Part shown: positions 38,656 to 46,451 of the stretch, piece by piece
Layout: every line of letters begins with the position of its first letter
How positions within the stretch are numbered: position 1 is the stretch's first letter
Program-made: the position numbers and the translations under genes
Source of the DNA: Domibacillus indicus
GTDB lineage: Bacteria; Bacillota; Bacilli; Bacillales; Domibacillaceae
NCBI RefSeq assembly: GCF_000970685.1
Contig: NZ_LAJB01000002.1
Location: 248,001 to 312,000 of the forward strand
DNA length: 64,000 bases
Reading direction: 5' to 3'
Notes under the pieces: model-generated
Databases searched by the model: none
Seen by the model: the letters and a program-made list of their open reading frames with translations, nothing else
Told to the model about the DNA's origin: nothing

Positions 38656-39852
38656 TTAATTAGAAGCAGAAGCGCCTTCTCCAGGCTCTTCTGCTTGTCC
38701 TGCAGCGTTAAACATATTGTTCCGCAGCAGGATCACAGCAAGACCTAGAATTACGGATAGAATTCCTGTTAGTACAACGTATGGTGTACCCATTTGTGAT
38801 ATCAATAACCCGCCTGCAGCTGAGCCAACTGTTGTTCCTAGGTTACATGCTGATATAAATAAACCATTGGCGAAATCAGGAGCTTCTGGAGCTGAGGATG
38901 CAATCAAATATTGATTTATATTCGCCATGATTCCTCCAGCCAGCAGACCCCAAAGAAAAGTGATGATTACCACAGGTACGGCCAGCTCCGCAGTGAAGAA
39001 TAAAAGAATGTAAACTGCTCCCAATAACAAAGGAAAAGTGAAGACGGACTTAACAGGACTATTCGTGAGCAGCCTCCCTGCAACGATGTTTCCAATCATA
39101 TTGGCTCCACCGAAAACGAATAGCGTTAAACTGATGGTATTCGGAGACATTCGGGTAACCGTTTCCAGGTACTCAGCAATATAACTGTATACCCCGAATA
39201 CAGAAGCATTTAATAAAATGACAGCTGCGATAGAAACCCATATAATGGATTTTTTCAAAACAGCAAGCTGTTCACCGTACGATTGTCTTTTTTCCACAGG
39301 CATAGACGGCACAAAAATGAATGTAGCGGCCAATACAAATGCATTTACAATAGCAAAAAAGGCCATCGCCATTTCATACGAAAGAGCGCTGTCAATAAAG
39401 CTTGCGATCGGTACGCCGGCTACCATACCGGCAGATATTCCTATAAACACGTTAGAAACAGCTTTTGGAGCTTCTTCAGGTTTTACTGAGGAAGCGGCTA
39501 CGGTAAATGCCATGGAACAATAAACCGGATGGAAAAGAGCCAGTGCGATGCGAATGATTAATAGAAGGGTAAAGTTCGTGACAAACACGGATGCGATGTT
39601 TCCCACAACGAATACGCTTAATACAAGCAGCATGACCTTTTTTCGATTGATTCCTGATAGCAATAACGGCATCGTCGGCCCCGATACCGCAATAGCAAGA
39701 GCAAAAAAACTCACCGTCCAGCCTGCCTGCGCTATACTGACATCAAAGTGATCAGCAATGGAAGGCAATAACCCGATAACCCCCATCTCCGTATTTAAGA
39801 TGCCGAAAACACCTATGGTCAATATGAAAATCAACAATTTATTTTCTTTCAC
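38656..39852 (-). CDS. MFS transporter (AraJ/YdhP-like efflux)
   Basis: The protein has about 398 residues and 12 membrane segments. The N-terminal signature KENKLLIFILTIGVFGILNT fits the DHA1/AraJ efflux group, as does the motif A region LLSGINRKKVMLLVL. The start is uncertain: GTG 39852 gives the typical MKENKLL start with AGGAG 12 bases upstream; TTG 39864 is too close to it. The gene is divergent from a LysR regulator, with a perfect 7-5-7 palindrome between, so LysR control is likely. The substrate is unknown. Confidence 0.9.
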   Translation of the reverse strand: MKENKLLIFILTIGVFGILNTEMGVIGLLPSIADHFDVSIAQAGWTVSFFALAIAVSGPTMPLLLSGINRKKVMLLVLSVFVVGNIASVFVTNFTLLLIIRIALALFHPVYCSMAFTVAASSVKPEEAPKAVSNVFIGISAGMVAGVPIASFIDSALSYEMAMAFFAIVNAFVLAATFIFVPSMPVEKRQSYGEQLAVLKKSIIWVSIAAVILLNASVFGVYSYIAEYLETVTRMSPNTISLTLFVFGGANMIGNIVAGRLLTNSPVKSVFTFPLLLGAVYILLFFTAELAVPVVIITFLWGLLAGGIMANINQYLIASSAPEAPDFANGLFISACNLGTTVGSAAGGLLISQMGTPYVVLTGILSVILGLAVILLRNNMFNAAGQAEEPGEGASASN

Positions 39853-40180
39853 AAAAAGAAACAACTCCTATCTTTCATAAAAAATAAAATGCTCCCAGCC
39901 CCCGTTCGCGAAACGGTGATTCCTCCTGATTGGTGATGGAAATTAGAGGTTTTGAAGCGATGTAATTCCAAACCTGCTGTTGTATGAAACTGATTTTCTT
40001 GTTACCTTATCGCTTAACTCAAAAATACATTTAGATAACATCCTTTCAGTTATCTTCCCTTCGTTATTTATTTTAGCTATGCCATCTCCATATAACAAAT
40101 ACCTATATCTCATATCAAGATATGCTTGATAAGCATTTGTTGAATATTTATACTAAAACATAATAAAGGAGGAATGCTGG
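39853..40180. other. Divergent control region between MFS and LysR genes
   Basis: It contains the LysR-type palindrome at 40113-40131 and is otherwise AT-rich without structure that I can name. Confidence 0.5.
40113..40131. promoter_or_regulatory. LysR-type operator palindrome
   Basis: TATCAAG and CTTGATA are perfect inverted arms around ATATG, 50 bases upstream of the LysR start in the divergent promoter region. Size and position fit a LysR recognition box. Confidence 0.65.
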
Positions 40181-41089
40181 ATGGAATTTAGAGTTTTGCG
40201 CTATTTTCTTACTGTTGCCAGAGAAGGAAGCATTACGCGTGCTGCTGATTTCTTGCATGTGACACAGCCAACCCTGTCAAGACAATTAAAAGATCTTGAA
40301 CAGGAATTAGGAAAAAAACTATTTACTCGCAGCAGTCACAGTATTATTCTCACAGAGGAAGGAATGCTCCTGCGCAAAAGAGCAGAAGAAATTGTGGATA
40401 TGGTCGAAAAATTAGAAGCAGAATTCAGCTCCATGGAGGAAACCATAAGCGGTGATGTTTACATAGGCAGCGGGGAAACAGACGCCATGAAACAAATTGC
40501 GCGGGCAGCAAAGGATTTACAATCACGCTATCCAAATATACGGTATCACCTTTACAGTGGAAACGAAGACGACGTGACCGAACGGCTTGACAAGGGCTTG
40601 CTTGATTTTTGTATTTTAATTGAACCAGCCGATTTATCAAAATATAATTATATTAATATTCCGGCCAAGGATGTTTGGGGAGTTGTCATGAGAAAAGACA
40701 GTCCTCTTGCTTCGAAAGATACCATTCAAGCAGTTGATTTAGTAAATGTTCCGCTGCTCTTTTCACGACAGGCTATACAGCAGACATTGTCTAAAAATGA
40801 ATTTGTGGAGTGGTTTGGAGAAGATTTTGATAAATTAAACGTCGTGGCTACATACAATCTTCTCTATAACGCTGCTATTATGGTGGAAGAAGGCATCGGC
40901 TATGCAGTAACCATTGACAAGCTGGTGAATACGTCCAGCGACAGCAGCCTTTGTTTTAGGCCGCTGGAGCCAAGACTGGAAGCCGGCTTAAATATTGTCT
41001 GGAAAAAGCATCAAGTTTTATCCGCTGCAGCTGATCTGTTTTTAAAAGAAATTCAGGCGAAATTCACAAATTCTTCATCAGATGGATAA
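40181..41089 (+). CDS. LysR family transcriptional regulator
   Basis: This 302-residue protein has an N-terminal winged HTH (FLTVAREGSITRAADFLHVT, then QPTLSRQLKDLEQELGKKLF), the linker helix and a periplasmic-binding-type effector domain (from about 90). GGAGG lies eight bases before the ATG. It is divergently placed to the MFS efflux gene and presumably activates or represses it in response to an unknown small molecule. A bidirectional terminator follows. Confidence 0.93.
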   Translation: MEFRVLRYFLTVAREGSITRAADFLHVTQPTLSRQLKDLEQELGKKLFTRSSHSIILTEEGMLLRKRAEEIVDMVEKLEAEFSSMEETISGDVYIGSGETDAMKQIARAAKDLQSRYPNIRYHLYSGNEDDVTERLDKGLLDFCILIEPADLSKYNYINIPAKDVWGVVMRKDSPLASKDTIQAVDLVNVPLLFSRQAIQQTLSKNEFVEWFGEDFDKLNVVATYNLLYNAAIMVEEGIGYAVTIDKLVNTSSDSSLCFRPLEPRLEAGLNIVWKKHQVLSAAADLFLKEIQAKFTNSSSDG

Positions 41090-42317: not shown

Positions 42318-42908
42318 ATGAATACAGAAGAAAAAATGGCAAAGGGTCTGCTTTGGACAGATACAGGAGAATATCTCCAGGCGCAAACAAAGGCAAAAGA
42401 ATTGATGTATGATTTTAACCATTTAAGACCAGCCGAAAAAGAAAAACGAGTCGAACTGATTCATGAGATATTCGGTTCAGTTGGAGAAAGTGTGTGGATT
42501 GAGCCGCCTCTTACTTTTGCAAGGGGCAAGACCGTAACGATTGGAGACAATTGTTATATTAATGCCAATTTAACACTTGTAGATGATTATAAGATAACAA
42601 TTGGGAATGGAGTTCTAATTGCACCGAATGTGACGATCACCGTTACGGGTCATCCTGTTCACCATGAGCTTCGTAAACATGGGGAAATGTACACTTTTCC
42701 CGTACATATTGGCGATAATGTTTGGATTGGAGCGAATGTTGTCATTTTGCCTGGAGTGACTGTTGGAGAAAATTCTGTAATTGGTGCCGGGAGTGTTGTA
42801 ACGAAAGATATTCCTGCAAATGTAATTGCAGTTGGAAATCCATGCAGAGTACTTCGTGAAATTACAGACAAGGATAAAGAGTATTATTATAAAGATAGAA
42901 AATTGTAA
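42318..42908 (+). CDS. Maltose/galactoside O-acetyltransferase-type enzyme (LbH)
   Basis: This 196-residue protein of the LacA/Maa group has an N-terminal MAC domain (about 1-55, EEKMAKGLLWTDTGEYLQAQ) and a left-handed beta-helix of hexapeptide repeats (GDNCYINANLTLVDD, then GNGVLIAPNVTI and IGANVVILPGVTVGENSVIG). The catalytic His is in TGHPVHH (about residue 112). It should transfer acetyl from acetyl-CoA to a sugar hydroxyl. ATG 42318 has AAAGGAG eight bases upstream. It heads a plus-strand series with an HPr-like protein, an MFS permease and a HAD phosphatase. Confidence 0.93.
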   Translation: MNTEEKMAKGLLWTDTGEYLQAQTKAKELMYDFNHLRPAEKEKRVELIHEIFGSVGESVWIEPPLTFARGKTVTIGDNCYINANLTLVDDYKITIGNGVLIAPNVTITVTGHPVHHELRKHGEMYTFPVHIGDNVWIGANVVILPGVTVGENSVIGAGSVVTKDIPANVIAVGNPCRVLREITDKDKEYYYKDRKL

Positions 42909-43088
42909 GGCCAAAATAAAAAGAAACCAATTAAGGATATTGGGCACAAGGAGAGCATGGAATTTATTACAATCAAACGAGCGAGTGGTTCGCTAAACAT
43001 TGTATAGATCCTCTTCGAATGGCCAATGTTTCTTGTCAGGGGTCAACCGGATAATTGTTCATTACACTGAAGTATAAGGGTGAGAAAC

Positions 43089-43343
43089 ATGTTAATTAGC
43101 GATCTTATCGTTCGTCTCCCACAAGGTCTTCAGGCTAGAAACTCATGTAGACTGGTTAAAAATGCTTCCTCCTTTAACAGTGAAGTAACGATCGTTAAAA
43201 ATGGAATTTCAGGCAGTCTCGATGTAATGGAAATTATGGATTTAAATGTTCAAGAAGGAGACGAGATTACGTTACTAGTAGATGGATCGGATGAACAATC
43301 TGCAGCTGAGGTGTTGAAAAAATACTTATTGGACATTGAATAA
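43089..43343 (+). CDS. HPr/Crh-like protein lacking both phosphorylation residues
   Basis: This 84-residue protein has the full HPr fold length. Aligned by eye to B. subtilis Crh, VRLPQGLQAR matches VRLKTGLQAR, so the EI-phosphorylated His15 is Gln15, as in Crh. With a one-residue gap in the 40s loop, VMEIMDL matches IMGLMSL and the HPrK/P site Ser46 becomes Asp45. It thus can take neither phosphate, and the Asp may mimic P-Ser. Such a protein cannot pass phosphate in the PTS but might bind CcpA or another partner constitutively. The Pro-Ala after the ARP motif is also lost (ARNSC). ATG 43089 has AAGGGTGAG upstream. It is followed by an FucP-like permease. Confidence 0.88.
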   Translation: MLISDLIVRLPQGLQARNSCRLVKNASSFNSEVTIVKNGISGSLDVMEIMDLNVQEGDEITLLVDGSDEQSAAEVLKKYLLDIE

Positions 43344-43534
43344 CCTTGGAAAGAGTTTGCTCTCTAAAAAAATGGTAATAATCAGGTCAAAATAACTTTC
43401 TGGTCCAAAAATGAGCCATCAACCTTGTTCGAGAGAAAGCATTCCACGACCACATTCCATTTATCATAATTCCTGCGCCCTGGGTGTTTTACTAGAGGGC
43501 AAATTTACGAAAGATTAATGGTGAAAATTCAAAT

Positions 43535-44767
43535 ATGGGCACATTCCTTTTAGTCATCATTTATTTGGCTTCTATCAGTATAGAGTTACCTGATTCATTA
43601 CTAGGCGCAGCATGGCCTGTGATGCAGCCGGATTTTGGGGCCTCAATTGAGACTGCCGGCTTCCTGTTTATGGTGGTTTCAGGCGGTACCATTATCTCGA
43701 GTCTCGCTAGCGGAAAGATACTTGAACGGTTTGGAACCGGCAATGTCACCTTTGTCAGTTGCCTTATGACTGCAGGGGCTTTGTTGGGATTTTATTTTGC
43801 TCCCTCGCTTGTTTGGTTAATGATATGTGCCATACCGCTTGGATTAGGAGCGGGAGCTGTTGATGCAGGGCTAAACAATTTTGTTGCTATCCATTATAAG
43901 GCACACTATATGAGCTGGCTGCATTGTTTTTGGGGAGTCGGAGCTACTTTAGGTCCTGTCATTATGGCTCAGTTTATTTCAGGACAACATGCCTGGAGAA
44001 GCGGGTATCTTGCGATTGCTGGACTTCAGTTTGCGTTAGTTGCCCTCCTTTTCTTCACTTTGCCCCTATGGAACAGGGGGGCAAAAAACGGCCCTATTGC
44101 CTCAAATGAAAAGCCGGAAGATTCAAAAGCTGCCTTTTACAGTGAAGATTCTAAGCATGTGAAACCCTTGCAAATCAAAGGGGTTAAACTAGCCCTGGTG
44201 TCCTTCTTGTTTTATTGCGGGGTTGAAGCAACCGTAGGGCTTTGGGGAAGCAGCTTTCTGGTAAATGTCAAGGATCTGCCGGCAGCGGCTGCGGCACAAT
44301 GGGTTTCCCTGTATTACGCCGGAATCACAATCGGCCGCTTTATTACCGGTTTTATTACCTTTAAAATGAGGAATCGCACTCTTATTCGGATGGGGCAAAT
44401 TATAGCACTGGCGGGTGCTGCCCTTCTGTTCCTGCCGTTGCCGCCCACTTTCTCGCTTGCAGGTTTTATTATGGTTGGATTCGGATTAGCACCGATATTT
44501 CCATGTATGCTGCATGAAACACCCATTCGTTTTGGGAAGAAGCATTCCCAGACTATTATGGGATATCAAATGGCTGTTGCCTATACAGGCAGTACATTCA
44601 TACCGCCCCTTCTTGGGTTCATTGCATCGCATTCCACAATAGAAATCTTCCCATTTTGTATTGTTGTTTTTGTGGCAATAATGTTCCTGAGTTCAGAAAA
44701 ATTAAATACATTATTGAAAAAGAAGGATTTAGTAAAAAGAAACGACACAAGCTCAACAGCATTTTAA
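43535..44767 (+). CDS. MFS transporter, FucP/FHS-like sugar permease
   Basis: This 410-residue protein has 12 predicted helices with a central cytosolic loop (about 180-215). The early acidic motif SIELPDSLLGAAWPVM and GLGAGAVDAGLNNFVA, followed by WLHCFWGVGATLGPV, are typical of fucose/glucose permease-like (COG0738) MFS proteins, suggesting proton-driven sugar uptake. The ribosome binding site of ATG 43535 is weak. A HAD phosphatase starts 57 bases after its stop, and an HPr-like gene precedes it. The sugar is unknown. Confidence 0.9.
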   Translation: MGTFLLVIIYLASISIELPDSLLGAAWPVMQPDFGASIETAGFLFMVVSGGTIISSLASGKILERFGTGNVTFVSCLMTAGALLGFYFAPSLVWLMICAIPLGLGAGAVDAGLNNFVAIHYKAHYMSWLHCFWGVGATLGPVIMAQFISGQHAWRSGYLAIAGLQFALVALLFFTLPLWNRGAKNGPIASNEKPEDSKAAFYSEDSKHVKPLQIKGVKLALVSFLFYCGVEATVGLWGSSFLVNVKDLPAAAAAQWVSLYYAGITIGRFITGFITFKMRNRTLIRMGQIIALAGAALLFLPLPPTFSLAGFIMVGFGLAPIFPCMLHETPIRFGKKHSQTIMGYQMAVAYTGSTFIPPLLGFIASHSTIEIFPFCIVVFVAIMFLSSEKLNTLLKKKDLVKRNDTSSTAF

Positions 44768-44824: not shown

Positions 44825-45637
44825 ATGATTAAATTAGTGTTAACGGATATGGATGGCACATTCTTGAATAACAGCGGTGATTTTAACAGAGAACTGTATA
44901 AGAATGTGAAAAAGGTAATGAAGGAAAAGGGAGTGGCGTTTGCTCCTGTTACTGGCAAGCAATGTGAACGTGTGGAAGAATTGTTTGGCGAGGATGCTGA
45001 AGATTTATGGATTTTAGGAGATAGTGCAACTCGAATCAAACATAATGGAGAATTTGTTTACGAATCACTGCTAAGTAATAAACTGGGACTGGAAATTATC
45101 CAGCTGCTTGAGGAAATTAGTCTTGATCATACCATTATTGCGTGTACTAGAAATGGAGCTGTCACTAAAGACCACCTATCCCCGGAAGAAGCGGCTATTG
45201 TTAGAAGATCCTATGCTCAAGTAAGACAAGTATCTGATTTTAACGAAATAACAGATGATTTTGTCAAGATTACCATTCACGATCCAGCCCTTAAGTGTTT
45301 CGAAACGAGGGAAAAATTATCCCGCTTTTTTGATTCAGCTTATATTGTAGCATCTGAAGCAGCCTGGATTGACATAGCCAATGCGAACGTTCATAAAGGC
45401 ACGACCGTTGAATACTTGCAGCGTTTATTGAACGTAACACCAGAGGAAACAATGGCATTTGGGGATGGCTACAATGATTTAGAGCTTATGGTTCGCGCCA
45501 CATACAGCTTTGCTGTCCGAAATGCAGTTCAAGAATTAAAAGACGTTGCGAATTTTATTACCCGTTCTAATGAAGAAGATGCTGTAATGAAAACCATTAT
45601 TCAATTACTATCCTTGCAAAATGACATAGACAAATAA
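44825..45637 (+). CDS. Cof-type HAD-IIB hydrolase
   Basis: This 270-residue phosphatase has motif I TDMDGTF (D8 nucleophile, D10), a C2B cap (about 85-185), then K in the NVHKGTTVEYL region and motif IV FGDGYNDLEL. Cof-type enzymes dephosphorylate sugar phosphates and related metabolites. AGGAGG precedes the ATG. It sits between the sugar-type MFS permease and the GntR regulator, so it may control the phosphorylated form of the imported sugar. Confidence 0.93.
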   Translation: MIKLVLTDMDGTFLNNSGDFNRELYKNVKKVMKEKGVAFAPVTGKQCERVEELFGEDAEDLWILGDSATRIKHNGEFVYESLLSNKLGLEIIQLLEEISLDHTIIACTRNGAVTKDHLSPEEAAIVRRSYAQVRQVSDFNEITDDFVKITIHDPALKCFETREKLSRFFDSAYIVASEAAWIDIANANVHKGTTVEYLQRLLNVTPEETMAFGDGYNDLELMVRATYSFAVRNAVQELKDVANFITRSNEEDAVMKTIIQLLSLQNDIDK

Positions 45638-45740: not shown

Positions 45741-46451
45741 ATGGTAAAGTACCAGCAAATCGCAGATGAAATTGAAATGTATATTGAAGAAAATGCCCTT
45801 CAGCAGGGAGATAAACTGCCCGTGTTAGAAGGCTTAATGGCTCATTTTAACGTGAGTAAAAGTACGATTACGAAAGCACTGGAGCTATTGGAGAATAAAG
45901 GCGTCGTATTTCAAGTGAGGGGCAGCGGCATTTTTGTAAGAAGGCATAGAAGAAACGGGTACAGAAGCCTCCTTTCTAATCAAGGGTTTAAAAAGGAGCT
46001 TGAAGATTTTCACACAGCTTCAAAAGTAATCGAACTGGAAGTAACGAAGCCTGCAAAAGAAATAGCAGATCATTTAAATATTGAACTTGATGACGATATC
46101 TATTTTGTAAAAAGGGTTCAGTATATTGACAGGCAAATTTTGTGCCTTGAAGAATCCTATTTTAATAGATCCATCGTTACCTATTTGAATAAAGAAATTG
46201 TCTCTGAATCCATTTTTGATTATATTCAGAAAGGTTTAGGGGTAAAGATCGGCTTTTCAGATGTGTATCTTCACGCAGGAAAGCTGAAGGAAGAAGAGGC
46301 AAAACAATTATGCCTGGAAAGTGAAGAGCCTGCCTTTTATGTCGAATCCGTTTTTTATTTAACCAGTGGACAGCCGTTTAATTTTTCAAAAGTCACTTAT
46401 AATTATGAACAATCCCAGTTCTTTATCCAAACGAATGGCCACTTTTCCTAA
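45741..46451 (+). CDS. GntR/HutC family regulator (UTRA domain)
   Basis: The protein has 236 residues. The winged HTH (KYQQIADEIEMYIEENALQQ, then LMAHFNVSKSTITKALELLE and GSGIFVRR) is followed by a UTRA effector domain (VKRVQYIDRQILCLEESYFN and YVESVFYLTSGQPFNFSKVT). UTRA regulators usually sense phosphorylated sugars or amino acids. It ends the acetyltransferase/HPr-like/MFS/HAD series, so it is the likely local regulator. The ribosome binding site is weak (AGGGA 13 bases away). A terminator follows. Confidence 0.92.
   Translation: MVKYQQIADEIEMYIEENALQQGDKLPVLEGLMAHFNVSKSTITKALELLENKGVVFQVRGSGIFVRRHRRNGYRSLLSNQGFKKELEDFHTASKVIELEVTKPAKEIADHLNIELDDDIYFVKRVQYIDRQILCLEESYFNRSIVTYLNKEIVSESIFDYIQKGLGVKIGFSDVYLHAGKLKEEEAKQLCLESEEPAFYVESVFYLTSGQPFNFSKVTYNYEQSQFFIQTNGHFS

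Follow-up and report, generated by a model that had tools for sequence, protein, structure and literature searches.

Replacement of Ser46 of HPr by Asp is the classic laboratory phosphomimic for Gram-positive catabolite repression. The HPr and Crh residues that contact CcpA and HPrK in complex structures include Arg17, Ile/Val47, Met48, and Met51. Engineered HPr S46D leads to permanent catabolite repression in Bacillus subtilis (PMC4574613) and has served as a mimic of P-Ser-HPr in pneumococcus (PMC10269683), and the methylglyoxal synthase MgsA is inhibited by unphosphorylated Crh and not by P-Ser-Crh (PMC9631020). No description of a natural Asp46 HPr was found in the literature within our coverage, outside which most subscription journals lie. 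Here, we describe an HPr/Crh-like gene in a 64,000-nt stretch of the Domibacillus indicus genome (the window), the product of which belongs to a subfamily with a naturally charged, mostly acidic, residue at position 46. The gene and its key codons are as follows.

43076..43084, forward strand: Shine-Dalgarno sequence AAGGGTGAG, just 5' of the ATG
43089..43343, forward strand: HPr/Crh-like protein of 84 aa with Gln15 and Asp45 (equivalent to position 46), from the ORF, Pfam, phmmer, AlphaFold, and alignments
43131..43133, forward strand: codon for Gln15, replacing the PTS His15, from translation and alignment
43221..43223, forward strand: Asp45 codon (GAT), at the position of Ser46 in HPr/Crh, from phmmer, alignments, and gapless relatives

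The ORF is genuine, running from an ATG at 43089 to a stop at 43343 and encoding MLISDLIVRLPQGLQARNSCRLVKNASSFNSEVTIVKNGISGSLDVMEIMDLNVQEGDEITLLVDGSDEQSAAEVLKKYLLDIE; its GC3 is similar to that of neighboring genes, and a leader resembling its Shine-Dalgarno region is present in the relatives. The product is a member of the PTS-HPr family (PF00381; E 3.9e-17, 62.5 bits vs. a cut-off of 23), scores 55.7 bits against the Crh-type equivalog NF010354 (cut-off 123), and falls far under the cut-off of the HPr equivalog model as well. Two AlphaFold models computed from different alignments (pLDDT 87.2 and 88.9) both adopt the HPr fold; the second superposes on solved HPr and Crh structures, including S46D HPr and the CcpA-Crh-DNA complex 1zvv, at Z ~15-16 and ~1 Å rmsd, and Foldseek with the first model agrees. 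On these models, the window protein is an HPr/Crh-fold protein. With B. subtilis Crh (YvcM) it shares 38-40% identity, the HPr fold (the model superposes on the Crh of 1zvv), Gln15, Arg17, Met48, and Met51, but Asp takes the place of Ser46, which in Crh is the sole regulated site, Gly49 and Ser52 are replaced, and the gene lies outside the rapZ-yvcK-whiA-crh operon. Judged from residue 46 and the equivalog scores, the window protein is not a Crh. Engineered HPr S46D (1opd and 1sph; ptsH-S46D strains) likewise combines Asp46 with the HPr fold, but it is laboratory-made and keeps His15, whereas here Asp or Glu is natural, clade-wide, and accompanied by Gln15 and an altered helix B.

Both substitutions had been proposed in a first-pass annotation of this DNA, which read Gln at the His15 site and, after one gap, Asp at the Ser46 site, and both readings hold. 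The alignment at Gln15 is exact. For Asp45, the best PDB match by phmmer is 1opd, Escherichia coli HPr S46D, with the window Asp aligned on the mutant Asp, and MAFFT alignments also place Asp45 at Ser46. Structural comparison, which the annotation had suggested as a check, agrees: helix B spans residues 46-51/52 in both AlphaFold models, and Asp45 directly precedes it, as Ser46 would. The register is settled because relatives without the gap carry Asp there, reading G-K-D-I/L-M-K/R/E at 44-49. The window protein has further changes around this site and elsewhere, with one residue deleted around Lys45, Gly49 replaced by Glu, Ser52 by Asp, and Pro18 by Asn.

The host genome (3.60 Mb in 32 contigs) encodes seven HPr-family proteins, among them a separate true Crh, together with a single HPrK and a single CcpA, the latter having the MRLLTK helix, so that a P-Ser-like protein would find its usual partners. 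Across 13 Domibacillus genomes, which have between three and 14 HPr-family matches each, we aligned 78 distinct HPr-family proteins; Asp46 occurred in the window protein alone, Ser46 was retained in all 75 others that cover the site, and the other 12 genomes yielded no copy of the gene itself. Scans with the window protein over 84,980 GTDB species and over viral contigs returned no relative, both using exact 8-mer peptides, which are too strict at ~50% identity. Of 397 genomes, the window genome alone contained the motif DVMEIMD, and a D/E46 Crh pattern had no match in 387 genomes, a result that does not amount to absence because the pattern required Gly49, which is missing throughout the subfamily. 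An early reading of the protein as a degenerate orphan, drawn from the Ser46 alignment in Domibacillus, was overturned by a plasmid match in Niallia and a search with a two-sequence profile. The plasmid match came from tblastn: pMEGANia, a megaplasmid of Niallia taxi (NZ_CP102590.1), encodes an orthologue-like protein that lacks annotation, GLQARN...NGKEIMKVMDLNVNNGDEVTL, which is gapless and has Gln15 and Glu46. A profile built from the window and N. taxi sequences was searched against 397 genomes of the order. One set of proteins scored 82-114 bits, clearly apart from ordinary Crh, which reached 73 bits at most. The search recovered Asp46 in five proteins from two genomes, three copies in one (G317) and two in the other (G374), with GKDIMKIMDL or near variants; Lys46 in one protein (L234, genome G400); and Ser46 in a sister set (KSIMKVMAL or near variants) from a genus that shares its family with Priestia abyssalis. 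The high-scoring set also contained a few Ser46 proteins of a separate group, which we call class C. D46 genes are multiple in both G374 (L235 and L236) and G317 (L237, L238, and L239), and some of them lie next to genes for an FAD monooxygenase, an aldo/keto reductase, or an SDR.

In a maximum-likelihood tree, the window protein falls outside Crh and inside a 12-member subfamily with support of 100/99. Nested in this subfamily is a clade of eight proteins with Asp, Glu, or Lys at position 46 (D6 E1 K1), drawn from five genomes or records, the support of which is only 85/69; its sisters within the subfamily keep Ser46. Of the clade members, the window copy has diverged furthest (terminal branch 1.04; 55% identity to its nearest clade relative, L237). 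It clusters with the acidic-46 subfamily and shares the K/E/R residue at 49, Asp52, the MDL motif, and LysR and MFS2 neighbors. Position 49 is Lys, Glu, or Arg in all 12 members, Ser46 sisters included, and Gly49 is never kept, whereas Gln15, Arg17, Met48, Met51, and Asp52 are invariant in the clade of eight. The His15 that a functional PTS phosphocarrier needs is therefore lacking in the window protein and in every other clade member, and of the residues that mark Crh, the window protein has Gln15 and not Ser46. The residues expected of a P-Ser co-repressor are present, with Arg17, Met48, and Met51 in 8/8, an acidic residue at 46 in 7/8, and Ile, Val, or Leu at 47. Pairwise dN/dS among the D46 copies is 0.17-0.26, indicating that these genes are constrained. 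Conservation among close homologs, on which the annotation had made its idea depend, is thus largely borne out: Gln15 (8/8), acidic residue 46 (7/8), and purifying selection stand, and the exception is the one Lys46 member. We conclude that Crh-like proteins with a natural S46D/E replacement form a genuine subfamily under constraint.

Two groups of Ser46 proteins stand close to the clade. The sister proteins of the Priestia family (L240-L243 and L245) belong to the same 12-member subfamily and have Lys49 (KSIMKVMAL or near), but they keep Ser46 and neighbor a zinc ADH and a MerR regulator. The class C Crh-like proteins of Bacillales (for example, in Ectobacillus, Priestia, Neobacillus, and Domibacillus) have Gln or Glu at 15 and form the nearest outgroup, at 45% identity or less to the window protein; they differ in keeping K-S-I-M-G at 45-49 and in having 2HCT, CitMHS, BrnQ, or sugar ABC genes as neighbors, rather than LysR and MFS2.

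The genes around the HPr-like gene in the window fall into an association that is conserved in the clade and a mosaic sugar cluster that is not.

38656..39864, reverse strand: MFS exporter MFS2; 56-74% identical copies beside L198, L235, and L237
39907..40038, reverse strand: what remains of an alpha/beta hydrolase gene, lying between MFS2 and LysR; the gene is whole in related cassettes
40181..41089, forward strand: LysR-family regulator, a conserved partner; 75-82% identical copies beside L198, L234, L236, and L238
41287..42195, reverse strand: AraC regulator of the mosaic cluster, outside the conserved association; 82% identical protein in Domibacillus robiginosus
42318..42908, forward strand: maltose/galactoside-type O-acetyltransferase of the mosaic cluster
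43442..43480, reverse strand: candidate inverted scrap of a ROK regulator gene, ~40 bp, 85%
43535..44767, forward strand: MFS transporter (FucP-like) in the mosaic cluster, with 81% identity to its D. robiginosus counterpart
44825..45637, forward strand: Cof-type HAD phosphatase of the mosaic cluster
45741..46451, forward strand: GntR/UTRA regulator of the mosaic cluster

LysR and/or MFS2 genes lie within ~5-6 kb of the HPr-like gene at six of the seven other clade loci, and at none of 27 control HPr-like loci (Fisher 5e-6); several clade loci share the same two genomes, so that the fairer figure is that by genome, 4/4 vs. 0/22. At L236 and L238, the HPr-like and LysR genes form a directly divergent pair; at L234 and L198, LysR is divergent from a series made up of SDR, HPr-like, and MFS genes. 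The hydrolase is intact near L236 and L238 and partly covered near L237. In the window, LysR and MFS2 are 2-4.4 kb upstream, with the AraC and acetyltransferase genes intervening. On Priestia and Peribacillus plasmids, LysR/MFS-type cassettes have no annotated HPr-like gene, and the linkage is for this reason strong from the HPr side only.

It was the other set of neighbors, the acetyltransferase, FucP-like permease, Cof phosphatase, and GntR regulator, that the first-pass annotation had singled out as the setting of the gene, and this part of its proposal is not supported. The cluster is present in D. robiginosus without an HPr-like gene; there, the AraC-acetyltransferase (~87% DNA identity) and Cof-GntR (~77%) blocks are adjacent, and the MFS gene adjoins its own ROK regulator. 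We rejected these four genes as conserved partners on the basis of that cluster, and rejected the MFS and Cof phosphatase pair also on the basis of Domibacillus enclensis, which has both and lacks the HPr-like gene at that locus. A ROK gene normally precedes the downstream MFS gene, and in the window a 41-bp inverted match to the D. robiginosus ROK gene sits between the HPr-like gene and the MFS gene, a sequence arrangement that hints at a rearrangement. The window contains 10 near-matches to cre-like sites (5.1 expected); near the HPr-like gene there is none at one mismatch or fewer.

The interpretation that we prefer, tentatively and at a probability somewhat below even, is that the window protein may act as an HPrK-independent, permanently P-Ser-Crh-like adaptor, its dose set by transcription, which would bind CcpA or a CcpA-like protein of the LacI/GalR type. 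It draws on sequence, trees, and linkage, and on analogy with engineered HPr. On this view, the subfamily first lost the site for EI, where Gln replaces His15 just as it does in Crh, and a charged residue, acidic in most cases, later became fixed at 46. Loss of EI control follows from Gln15, and HPrK would presumably no longer be able to switch an acidic-46 protein because there is no Ser46 to phosphorylate. Dose would instead follow transcription, with the linked LysR probably controlling the HPr-like gene. Because engineered S46D HPr is active and Arg17, Ile/Val47, Met48, and Met51 are kept, Asp may stand in for phosphoserine, binding would run through these residues together with position 46, and a permanent P-Ser-type (CcpA-binding) activity is plausible. 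The protein would also be predicted to leave MgsA uninhibited, since only unphosphorylated Crh inhibits that enzyme. That the S46D/E subfamily as a whole consists of constitutive CcpA-family co-regulators, dosed by the linked LysR and wiring the expression of an exporter/dehydrogenase module into catabolite control, is a broader idea that we regard as less likely than not. If the interpretation is correct, evolution has moved a Crh-like protein from kinase control to transcriptional control, and the acidic-46 subfamily offers a natural tool for learning what P-Ser-Crh does alone, without HPrK.

The Lys46 member L234, the loss of Gly49, and the divergence of the window copy all call for caution in reading residue 46 as a phosphoserine. 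Asp and Glu are also common helix N-caps, and Gly49, which lies next to the face that contacts CcpA and HPrK, is replaced already in the Ser46 sisters, so that helix B may serve another partner. An HPr-fold adaptor outside catabolite repression, with helix B remodeled (Lys, Glu, or Arg at 49 and Asp52) for some other protein such as the linked LysR or a dehydrogenase, and with the charge at 46 as an N-cap or part of a new interface, is the main rival because helix B changed before Ser46 was lost and one member has Lys46; we consider it possible, at a probability only a little lower than that of the preferred interpretation. Such an adaptor would fit the change at Gly49 in 12/12 subfamily members, the fixation of Asp52 (8/8), and a gene company of LysR, SDR, MFS, ADH/MerR, and FAD monooxygenase genes rather than sugar operons, but not so readily the conservation of the CcpA/HPrK contacts Arg17, Ile/Val47, Met48, and Met51 or the acidic residue 46 in seven of eight.

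Two further explanations have less to commend them. The window copy may be partly decayed, and its long branch and one-residue deletion, the hydrolase remnant by LysR, what looks like an inverted ROK fragment adjoining the HPr-like gene, and the presence of the gene in only one of 13 Domibacillus genomes would suit a passenger, a functional D46 gene severed from its LysR cassette and drifting in a rearranged sugar cluster. We hold outright drift to be unlikely, as the frame and Shine-Dalgarno sequence are intact, GC3 is neighbor-like, the HPr fold is confidently modeled, and all clade-invariant residues are kept. A dominant-negative Crh, in which the D46 protein would fill the HPrK/P or CcpA pocket without activation and damp local catabolite repression, would explain contact residues that are kept while the phosphorylatable Ser is gone; it seems very improbable, given that engineered S46D HPr activates catabolite repression and does not block it (PMC4574613, PMC10269683).

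The acidic-46 clade is part of a wider spread of HPr paralogs that the survey revealed. Two Domibacillus genomes (G005 and G012) have 14 HPr-family matches each, a few of them fragments, whereas most other genomes of the order have two or three. Many Domibacillus paralogs lack His15, keep Ser46, and adjoin organic-acid transporters, a spread that is apparently undescribed and that makes it easier to test why there is a Crh in addition to HPr. The neighbors include TctA (L138, L141, L145, L148, L150, and L151), CitMHS (L113, L115, L130, L133, and L139), BrnQ (L108-L110 and L112), and, in Ectobacillus and Priestia, 2HCT (2-hydroxycarboxylate) symporters (L176 and L177), with aconitase also among the neighbors of such genes (L108-L113, L115, L130, L133, L139, L176, and L177), which suggests transporter-dedicated Crh-like proteins. 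One HPr-like protein of the D. indicus genome itself (L150 3965-4213, G000:C11) is N-terminally truncated, starting at helix A without the His loop; proteins truncated in this way keep D-V-K-S-I-L-G and are encoded directly downstream of tctA, a gene of a tripartite tricarboxylate transporter, in at least six Domibacillus genomes. In another group (class D), the His loop is changed or deleted and MFxKTVxx is followed by KSIxGVLxLG; these genes (L120 7920-8237, also in the D. indicus genome, G000:C32; L116, L119, and L121-L126) adjoin nucleotide pyrophosphatase-like and other genes. In sugar ABC regions of both a Priestia megaterium plasmid and Ectobacillus funiculus, a Ser46 Crh-like gene (L199 5001-5258 and L172 5004-5261) is followed immediately downstream by a gene of the ROK family (glucokinase).
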